In this document: piece by piece, positions 3,447-19,255 of the stretch
Layout: every line of letters starts with the position of its first letter
How positions within the stretch are numbered: the first letter of the stretch is position 1
Origin: Deltaproteobacteria bacterium
GTDB taxonomy: Bacteria; Myxococcota_A; UBA9042; DTJE01
Length of the DNA: 47,849 nt
NCBI GenBank assembly: GCA_029555025.1
Contig: JAKPTZ010000014.1
Span: 1-47,849 of the forward strand
Direction: 5' to 3'
The notes under the pieces: model-generated
Seen by the model: only the letters and a program-made list of their open reading frames with translations
What the model was told of the DNA's origin: nothing
Databases searched by the model: none
Position numbers and translations under genes: made by a program

Positions 3447-6400
3447 TCACCACGACAGCCAGGTGGCGCTGCGCATGTAAAGCAGGCCGACCGTTTCGAT
3501 GGTCCAGCCGGCCGCGGTCAGGGACTGACGGTAGGCCTCAAGCTGGGGCATGTATTCATCCAGGCCCGCCGATTTCACAAAGTTGGCGCCGGGCACCGGG
3601 TTTCGCCTGCCCGCCTTGAAATCGACGACAATCGCCCGCTTTCCGGGGAAGGTCACCAGCAGGTCCATGCGGCCGGCGTGGAACCATGGGCTGTCCGGCG
3701 TCGATGTATTGACGCCCGCAAACGGCATCTCGAAGTGCAGCGTCGCTTCCGGTGACCTCAGCCGGGCAAGAAGTTCGGGCTGGTGCAGTTCAAGCCGTTC
3801 AAGGATTGCCGCAAGCCAACCGGCCAGCGCATCGTCATGAATGCCGTACCGCGATTCCAGGAAGGCGCGGGCGGCCCCGACGTCGGCCCCTGGTCGCAGG
3901 CCCGTGGATTCCATCCAGGAGTGAACCAGGTTACCCCACGCCGAATCGGAAATCGGGTCATCCCCTGCCATTTCATCCAGCTTCGGGGGATGAAGCGGGT
4001 CGGCACCGTAAACCACACTCACGGCGGGCAACAGCCCCTGGATCATGGCATCAAGTGCATCCGCGTCTGCCGTCTTCCATGCCTCGGCCGCCATCGACGG
4101 CGACACGGAAATCCATCCGGCCGGGGGACATGGTTTCACTGGGAAAGGCGCGGCCGCCCTGACATGTGCCCTGATGGTTGTGTCGATTTCATTCGGTGCC
4201 GCCAACTTAACCAGCTTGACGCCTTCCATGGGCACATCGTCGGCCATCCACAGATCCGACAAGGCGCCATGAATTCCAACATTGTGGGATCCAGTTGCAA
4301 AAGTTACCGACCTGACGGCCCTGGTGACGGCCACATATACCAGACGCAGCAACTCTTCTTCGCTGCGCTTCGCATCGATCCCGGCTGCCAGCCTGGATAC
4401 CGGATCCGGTCGCGGGTGAATCCCCTGTTCAGGATCATGGCTGACGCCAAGAAGCGCCAGTTCCCGGCCATCCAGCACCATCGAACCCCTGGATACGCCG
4501 CCGAAGCCACCACCTCCGGCAGGACTCCCAATCGACATCACGCAGACGTGGTCGTATTTCAGCCCCTTGGCTTGGTGAATCGTCGTGCAACTGACGCTTT
4601 TCTTGCCTCGGTACAGTTCGACTCGCGGGACCTCGCCGGCTTCCTTCGGGTCAAGCATCGTGACGACGGCCTCGGGATCCACGGTGTCCGCTTCCGCCTG
4701 CCTGATCCAATCAAGGATCACTTCCAGTTCGCCGACGGCATCCATGCCGCCAGGGCCTTTCAGAAGGATGCTTCGCCAGTGCAGCGCCGCCGCCATTTCT
4801 TCCAGGACATCGGCGGTGGGAACGCGCCCGATTTCGGACCTGGCTTTTTCCAGAACAGGCCTGACCCGCGCAAAGGCGACAAAATCCCGCTGACCGAAAA
4901 CCGCCGGATCAAGGCCCTGGGCCGACGCAGCCCAGGCGAGCCCCCGAATGCCGCCGTCCGCCGGAAGAAGGCCACTACCCGCCCTGAAAGCGGCCAAAGC
5001 CCCGTCCGAAAGACCGATCATCGGAAGCCGCCACAAACCGGCCCAGGCAATATCATCGGAACTGTCCCACAGCGCTGACACAACCGTTCTGATGTCGCCC
5101 GCGACAATCCCCTTTGCAAGTTCACGACTTCCGTCCAGAAACGCATCGCCGGAATTCCCGGCCCGCAGAATCGATCTGATCCGGTTGCGTGCGTTGATGG
5201 CATTCGCCCAGCTGGAACACAGGACGGCGGCGGTGTCGTCACCTCTGCCTTCGAAATTCCAGGCATGCATGATTCGGTCACAGAAGACGTCCAGGGCGGC
5301 ATTGTTGAAATCGGCCGGAACCCATTTCGGGGCGTTCGGCGTTGATGCCTCCAGGGTAACCATCACAATGGGTTCCGGGTATGGCGCGGATGGCGGCAAT
5401 TCGTCCCTGCCCCTGGATTCATTCGACTGGACGTGGTCGATCGTGGTAACCCCGGGCAGGCCGGGAAAATCCCCATGGCCATGGATGGCCCGATCGAACA
5501 GGGCCTTCTGGGCCGTGATCATCTCCGGGGTACTTCGATAATTGGTGTCGAGCTGCTCGACCGGGAAGCCGGCCTGGATTGATCTCTGTTCCAGTTCTTT
5601 CAGGCCTGCCGGTTCGGCGCCGCGGAACAGATAGATGCTCTGCCTGGAATCGCCGACATAGAAAGTACGCAACGACCGCCCGTCCCCCGGCAGATTTTCG
5701 ATTGCCCGGAACAGGCTGAATTGGGCCGGGCTGGAATCCTGAACTTCATCGACCAGCAACGCGTCGAAACGTCTGCGAAGCCGGTCGGGACGATCCTCGC
5801 GTCTGCACAAATCGATCGCCGCCCGGGTCAGCAGGTCGTGATCCAGCGCCCCAGATGCCGCGGCCATGCGAAACGCCTTCGACCGGGCCATGCGGGTGAT
5901 TTCCATGATGTCCGCCCGCATCCTGTCACAGGCGTCGATATCCTTTGCGATGAACCCATCCGGGTTGGTCATGGCAAAATCGTGAAGGCTCAGTTCGACA
6001 AGTCCCAGATCCACTTTGATGGCGCGGAAGGCGCTTTCCAGACTGCGCCTCTCTTTGGCCGTGCTGTTTTTGATCACGGCCGAATACCACTTGAACAGCC
6101 CTTCCGGGACCGATCCCTGGAACCCCCCGTTCCTCCAAGCAGCTATTGGAGGCCAGGATTTCTGAATATTCACGTTCGGCAACGTTTCAATTTTCGGATT
6201 GGTCTCAATCACGGCCTGAAGTGAATCCCGGCACCCGGACAAAACCTTCCCCAGCACATCGTTTCCGCCAGCCAGTTCGACGGGCGAACCGTCGATGCCG
6301 GAGGGCATATCACGCACGGTCTGCGAAACCACTTTTAGCAGTTCACGAAGGCCCATCTGTTCCAGCAGCCGGCCGGCCGCTTCCGGCACATTCCCATCCT

Positions 6401-19084: not shown

Positions 19085-19102
19085 ATCTTCACCCTACACA
19101 AT

Positions 19103-19217
19103 AACCGGCAAATCGCAGACACGGCAAACCGGCAATAATTGCTTACCAGTTTCCAAACAAACTGGCAACAAAACATTACCAGTTATCACCAAAACCGGCA
19201 ATGATTCCGATCCGGTT
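19103..19217. repeat. Array of alternating AACYGGYAA sites, 33-bp period
   Basis: A 9-base motif AACYGGYAA occurs at 19103-19111 (+), 19127-19135 (+), 19143-19151 (-), 19160-19168 (+), 19176-19184 (-), 19193-19201 (+), and as a diverged copy at 19209-19217 (-). From 19127 on, copies alternate in orientation every 16-17 bases, so the DNA is three diverged 33-bp units (19127, 19160, 19193), each an inverted pair. As a result two perfect hairpins can form: CCAGTTT/AAACTGG (19146-19165) and CAAAACCGG/CCGGTTTTG (19190-19220). The array fills most of the gap between rmuC and the ATPase gene and sits 19-133 bp upstream of the ATPase start. It could be an operator array or an RNA structure at the rmuC 3' end. 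Confidence 0.75.
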
Positions 19218-19255
19218 TTGTTACGCGAATCTGCCCTGAGCGGAAAACCAATGGG

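Follow-up and report, generated by a model that had tools for sequence, protein, structure and literature searches.

A site array that accompanies a DUF4143 AAA+ ATPase gene across phyla suggests that family members bind and control their own gene

The archaeal AAA+ protein Orc1/Cdc6 has paralog-specific inverted sites near its own gene. Repeats in the promoters of defence genes can also be repressor targets, as for RptR, which uses three direct repeats (PMC12255303). PDC-S01 (COG1373, or AAA_14-DUF4143) is a phage-defence candidate in PADLOC, comprising an ATPase plus a PD-(D/E)xK domain; it was picked out by guilt-by-embedding, a route by which most candidates still await validation, and is reported to rank fourth in abundance among prokaryotic defences, its copies numbering in the tens of thousands and its mechanism not being known (PMC12988326). 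No report of promoter sites, upstream repeats or self-regulation for DUF4143, COG1373, AAA_14, COG1672 or PDC-S01 was found in the accessible portion of the open-access literature, which is weak evidence because most subscription papers lie outside it. Here we describe an array of 9-base AACYGGYAA sites directly upstream of an ATPase gene of this family in a 47,849-nucleotide stretch from a Deltaproteobacteria bacterium (assembly GCA_029555025.1, contig JAKPTZ010000014.1), the whole of which is referred to as the window.

Exact matches to AACYGGYAA were counted on both strands of the window. Six fall within 115 bp (Table 1), where base composition predicts 0.002 (~1.05 in the whole window), and a seventh, diverged copy continues the array in phase; the count and its coordinates agree with a first-pass annotation, made from the letters alone, that had placed six 9-base copies and a diverged one in 115 bp. 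From 19127 onward successive sites face opposite ways and start 16, 17, 16, 17 and 16 bp apart, giving a 33-bp unit that occurs three times with changed spacers, copies 2 and 3 being 74% and 78% identical to the first; the alternation every 16–17 bases and the 33-bp period read earlier are thus borne out by measurement. The site at 19103, previously hinted to break the pattern, does so: it is out of phase, 24 bp from its neighbor and in the same orientation. What had been called half-turn-like spacing corresponds to approximately 1.5 turns between sites (15–17 bp) and approximately three turns per pair (32–33 bp). Sites with one mismatch number 43 in the window versus 28 ± 5 in shuffles, and the inverted-pair pattern (4–9 bp gap) is found only at the array when the whole 3.49 Mb genome is searched. 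The 171 bp that separate rmuC from the ATPase gene contain the array, with 18 bp left between its end and the start codon of the ATPase.

The site follows the ATPase protein, not the host. Relatives identified by a scan of public genomes are mostly 42–58% identical to the window ATPase, with more found in related genomes, and their hosts include Beta-, Gamma- and Deltaproteobacteria, Acidobacteria, Planctomycetes, Spirochaetes, Verrucomicrobia, Hydrogenedentota and Coprothermobacterota, among others. Nearly all relatives above ~48% identity (48–58%) carry AACYGGYAA-like sites directly upstream, with the spacing kept, which answers the first of the checks that the first-pass annotation had proposed. 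In the 21 window-type genes, the last 140 bp upstream hold 58 sites, whereas the coding sequence, ~27 kb in all, has 44 and the 3.1 kb of downstream sequence has 4. Their spacing is rigid (>< at 15 bp 16 times, <> at 17 bp 9 times), and one inverted pair occupies 32 bp, i.e. three helical turns. Some window-type members read AAGTGGTAA in place of AACYGGYAA, and a relative with 42% identity (L062) carries a different word, CCAACATGG; site and protein diverge together. In a reverse test, the inverted-pair pattern was searched for in 379 related genomes with the reversed pattern as a control. It occurs in five, in three of which (G000, G002 and G033) it stands at the promoter of this ATPase; in the other two it is not near this ATPase and looks like chance, the reversed control pattern being found in three genomes. 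The genome-wide count that had also been proposed therefore finds the pair pattern to be unique in its own genome and almost absent otherwise. Across genomes the site is linked to the ATPase lineage, as an operator is to the gene of its regulator.

These comparisons leave practically no room for chance or simple tandem duplication of the 33-bp unit as the origin of the array. The units do resemble one another to the extent given above, as duplication would predict, but the same 9-mers stand among different spacers before the same gene in unrelated genomes, in agreement with the earlier proposal of selection for the sites with free spacers; this conservation across phyla, together with the very low expected number of exact sites, refutes both explanations.

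The binder could instead be a separate host transcription factor that regulates the ATPase gene, since ordinary repressors typically bind alternating inverted sites that span a promoter, and the ATPase is a presumed binder. Such a factor would, however, have to accompany the gene across many phyla while being encoded elsewhere: the same site stands before this ATPase in many phyla among unrelated neighbors (one shared pair of neighbor genes among 23 loci), and a conserved partner gene of the ATPase, sought among these 23 loci, was not found. Paralogs within one genome also have different motifs, and a regulon of AACYGGYAA pairs was rejected because the pair pattern, confined to this locus in its own genome and nearly absent elsewhere, is found there only once. 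We therefore regard a separate factor as unlikely. The first-pass annotation had named the ATPase or a regulator as possible binders; the ATPase is the most likely of the two, the unrelated neighbors and the lack of a regulon arguing against the other.

In part of the window-type relatives, the position of the sites relative to the promoter, predicted from matches to the sigma-70-type consensus, would suit an operator. Approximately half of the window-type relatives have TTGAC[AG] near −80 followed, after 16–18 bp, by a −10 box near −57 (e.g. TTGACA-17-TATAAA in L048 and TTGACA-17-TACAAT in L057). In these relatives the −10 box falls inside the first site (near −64 to −56), and the second site lies near the expected start point. 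The same arrangement bears on whether the inverted pairs might act as RNA hairpins in the ATPase mRNA leader, as an attenuator or a protein-binding leader, which appears very unlikely. Folding of the transcript strand is more favorable than that of shuffled sequences (z −3.8), but this score does not discriminate because alternating inverted sites must fold, and in many relatives the first site, being at the −10 box, is upstream of the transcript. At the two variable positions the relatives show 10 A.C mismatches and 14 G.U pairs, which is roughly equal; pairing is lost at 19% of stem positions; and the direct repeats of sister subfamilies are unable to form hairpins. A hairpin leader was rejected as a candidate, there being no Rfam match and no preference for changes that preserve pairing. 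Of the two alternatives offered in the first pass, a protein binder is thus favored, and the hairpin array is disfavored by the mismatches, the −10 position and the direct-repeat sisters.

The predicted structure of the ATPase is compatible with DNA binding. In Pfam it matches AAA_14 (E 9e-31, 107 bits, cut-off 27) and DUF4143 (E 3e-16, 60.2 bits, cut-off 28.1), and in PADLOC the PDC-S01 models (351 bits); sequence searches of NCBIfam and the PDB gave no match. An AlphaFold2 model built from 34 sequences (predicted local distance difference test 92, predicted template modeling score 0.91) comprises an AAA+ core, lid helices, a clear winged helix (~236–310) and a PD-(D/E)xK-like domain (~327–434). 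The top PDB folds in a Foldseek search include SSO1545 (first), PABY2304 (third) and Orc1/Cdc6 bound to origin DNA (2qby, E 6e-8; 2v1u, E 2e-7; low whole-chain template modeling score, TM-score), and a search of a viral fold library with the model returned nothing specific. Residues that distinguish the AACYGGYAA subfamily from the AAGGAGAA subfamily make up 27% of the winged helix but 13% of the remainder (p 0.003), as expected if that domain reads the site. The PD-(D/E)xK-like domain keeps E356-x-D358, but Q372-V-C374 replaces the usual ExK across the whole window subfamily, such that the window ATPase lacks the combination of an acidic residue and (D/E)xK seen in active nucleases of this fold. 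Cleavage by the window subfamily is doubtful because of this replacement, which suggests that nuclease activity has been changed or lost.

An initiator-like AAA+ plus winged-helix fold would also suit an ATPase whose target is an element for replication, recombination or partition (like an origin, a transposon end or parS), much as Orc1/Cdc6 acts at origins adjacent to its gene. Arrays of alternating sites are reminiscent of those of transposases or initiators, and the gene is scattered across phyla, with relatives also on plasmids. However, the sites stand on one side of the gene only, with few in the downstream sequence, no transposase or partition partner is common to the loci, and the sites overlap the predicted promoter in relatives, which argues for regulation rather than a replication origin. 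We consider an element of this type improbable. Transposon ends in particular were rejected, as no matching array lies downstream of the ATPase genes.

Upstream repeats are apparently a general rule in the DUF4143 family. The genome of the window has 13 DUF4143 paralogs, most of which show other repeats of their own upstream. Repeats were scored as local self-matches, inverted or direct, in the 150 bp upstream, which had to beat 40 dinucleotide shuffles. By this score, 55.7% of 158 DUF4143 genes have significant upstream repeats compared with 20.7% of 261 controls from the same loci (p 4e-13), and the same statistic, unchanged, gave 52.5% for the 80 genes and 18.2% for the 132 controls (p 3e-7) of a second set from 18 other genomes, which overlaps the first by 3 of 93 open reading frames (ORFs). 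In the second set the inverted repeats carry the signal, direct repeats alone falling short of significance (p 0.07), and the DUF4143 genes have stronger promoter-like boxes than the controls, which include genes inside operons. A cruder 9-mer repeat score, superseded by the self-match score, had given a weak signal only (p 4e-4). The repeat type differs between subfamilies, which have inverted pairs, direct repeats (TTGCAATTGGACG in L004 and CAATTAGCCGGT in L211) or a single dyad. Gene pairs with at least 50% protein identity have a repeat motif in common (Z > 2) in 19–38% of cases, compared with 0–6% for random segments and 2–5% for pairs below 50% identity.

On these grounds we consider it probable that the ATPase binds the array in its own promoter via the winged helix and limits its own expression. 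The array would then be the operator of the ATPase's own gene, and the protein, which with its AAA+ motor, lid, winged helix and PD-(D/E)xK-like domain resembles in build archaeal AAA+ ATPases or initiators that bind origins, would recognize AACYGGYAA through its winged helix. Several subunits would bind cooperatively, side by side in alternating orientation, with one inverted pair per 32–33 bp (three turns) and with their AAA+ domains probably touching one another. Occupancy should shut off transcription, because in relatives the −10 box and the predicted start point lie within the sites, and would keep the protein at a low, self-limited level. Phage infection, or ATP-driven remodeling, may act as the inducing trigger, drawing the protein off and opening the promoter. 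Each subfamily would have changed winged helix and site together, allowing many paralogs (up to 35 per genome searched) to coexist without cross-talk.

Several observations weigh against self-regulation by the ATPase. Linkage and co-divergence could also arise from an unlinked regulator that follows the gene, although none is shared. The winged-helix enrichment derives from only two subfamilies, and ~45% of DUF4143 genes have no significant repeat by the scoring used. Dyads coincide with the best promoter in 41.5% of cases versus 24% by chance, but this is only slightly above the value for control-gene dyads (34%, n = 32). The window's own predicted promoter is weak and ambiguous: one promoter-like pair comes from two of the sites (Table 1), and another weak candidate lies at ~19098–19127. 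The promoter reading for the window hence leans on the relatives, since the window promoter is weaker and may be built from the sites themselves. Whole-chain TM-scores to PDB matches are low (0.43 for SSO1545 and 0.31 for Cdc6), and the likeness to solved folds therefore holds domain by domain. The hairpin, transposon-end and chance readings fit worse than autoregulation by the ATPase.

Table 1. Coordinates of the site array, the ATPase gene and associated features in the window
Feature	Position	Strand	Basis
AAA+ ATPase gene, AAA_14-DUF4143, COG1373 type, PADLOC PDC-S01, 439 aa	17765..19084	-	profile matches
Intergenic region between rmuC and the ATPase gene, holding the array	19085..19255	.	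ORF layout
Site 7, AACCGGCAA, out of phase, 24 bp from site 6	19103..19111	+	exact motif match
Site 6, AACCGGCAA	19127..19135	+	exact motif match
Site 5, AACTGGTAA	19143..19151	-	exact motif match
Site 4, AACTGGCAA	19160..19168	+	exact motif match
Weak promoter-like pair from sites 2 and 3, TTGCCG - 17 bp - TAATGT, putative	19173..19201	-	consensus match
Site 3, AACTGGTAA	19176..19184	-	exact motif match
Site 2, AACCGGCAA	19193..19201	+	exact motif match
Site 1, diverged copy AACCGGATC, in phase	19209..19217	-	sequence inspection, unit comparison

The window locus is not an obvious defence island, its neighbors being RmuC (profile match) and two genes that resemble SbcC and SbcD, judging by eye from their ORFs. 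Among other DUF4143 subfamilies, L160 has a direct repeat with three TTTTCATCGAAAATTGACGACAGAGTTGTGGA-type units upstream of 4467, and L128 has a GTTTTTCTCTCGATAAGGAC-type direct repeat with four copies upstream of the ATPase gene at 4833–6116 (- strand). The genomes of L062 and L059 (G395 and G392; 2.8–6.3 Mb) show an unusual expansion, with 31–35 DUF4143 genes each.

Plasmid records with relatives of the ATPase number 225, of which 169 are from Acinetobacter, and by eye the plasmid relatives of Bacteroides, Sulfuricurvum, Calditerrivibrio, Acinetobacter and the archaeon Methanomethylovorans appear to have repeats of their own. An Acinetobacter plasmid relative (L270, 2474–6194) adjoins WYL, DUF1819 and DUF1788 genes, read as BREX or BREX-like, and the Methanomethylovorans plasmid relative (L271, 2504–6278), which has an upstream direct repeat of roughly TAGATTATRATCG, lies near a viperin gene; such neighbors would fit a defence role. 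At L279 (genome contig C4, 744–6583) a 78-nt repeat occurs five times, the copies being 64–86% identical to the first and most ending in CTTAACTTCCGGTTTAA. These repeats bracket single genes at 1.3–1.8 kb steps, at least three of them DUF4143 ATPases, such that the locus looks like a cassette array of ATPase genes; no integron integrase was found there above the family cut-off.

A wider proposal, to which we give only a minor chance, is that the PDC-S01/COG1373 family consists of orthogonal, self-addressed AAA+ DNA-binding defence factors. Each would oligomerize in an ordered way on the array in its own promoter, which would act as a sink and keep it inactive until infection. The specificity of the sites would diversify like a self/non-self label, allowing many paralogs to coexist in one genome. 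If most PDC-S01 members carry their own recognition site in the promoter, the DNA target of many could be read from sequence, and binding, autoregulation and the link to defence would be directly testable; the family would also offer a large natural set for how winged-helix specificity evolves.

Autogenous operator control is of a known kind. What would be new here is that the controller is the presumed effector AAA+ ATPase, apparently family-wide, which, if true, would be an unusual control for a defence gene. The window ATPase matches the PDC-S01 models (E 1.7e-105), but its subfamily has QxC instead of the usual ExK residues. With the archaeal AAA+ ATPases SSO1545 (2fna) and PABY2304 (2qen), its first and third fold matches, it has 12–13% identity, and to our knowledge neither of these has known DNA sites. 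With archaeal Orc1/Cdc6, which acts at origin recognition boxes, it appears to have the AAA+ plus winged-helix arrangement in common, as the Foldseek match of its predicted structure to the DNA-bound form suggests. In contrast to Orc1/Cdc6, its sites cover a predicted promoter (in relatives) and not a known replication origin, it has a C-terminal PD-(D/E)xK-like domain, and the whole-chain similarity is low. As with RptR and the WYL repressors (BrxR/CapW) of defence islands, a repressor would act at repeats in the promoter of a defence gene; however, RptR and BrxR/CapW are small dedicated repressors, whereas in the present case repression would fall to the ATPase, the presumed effector.
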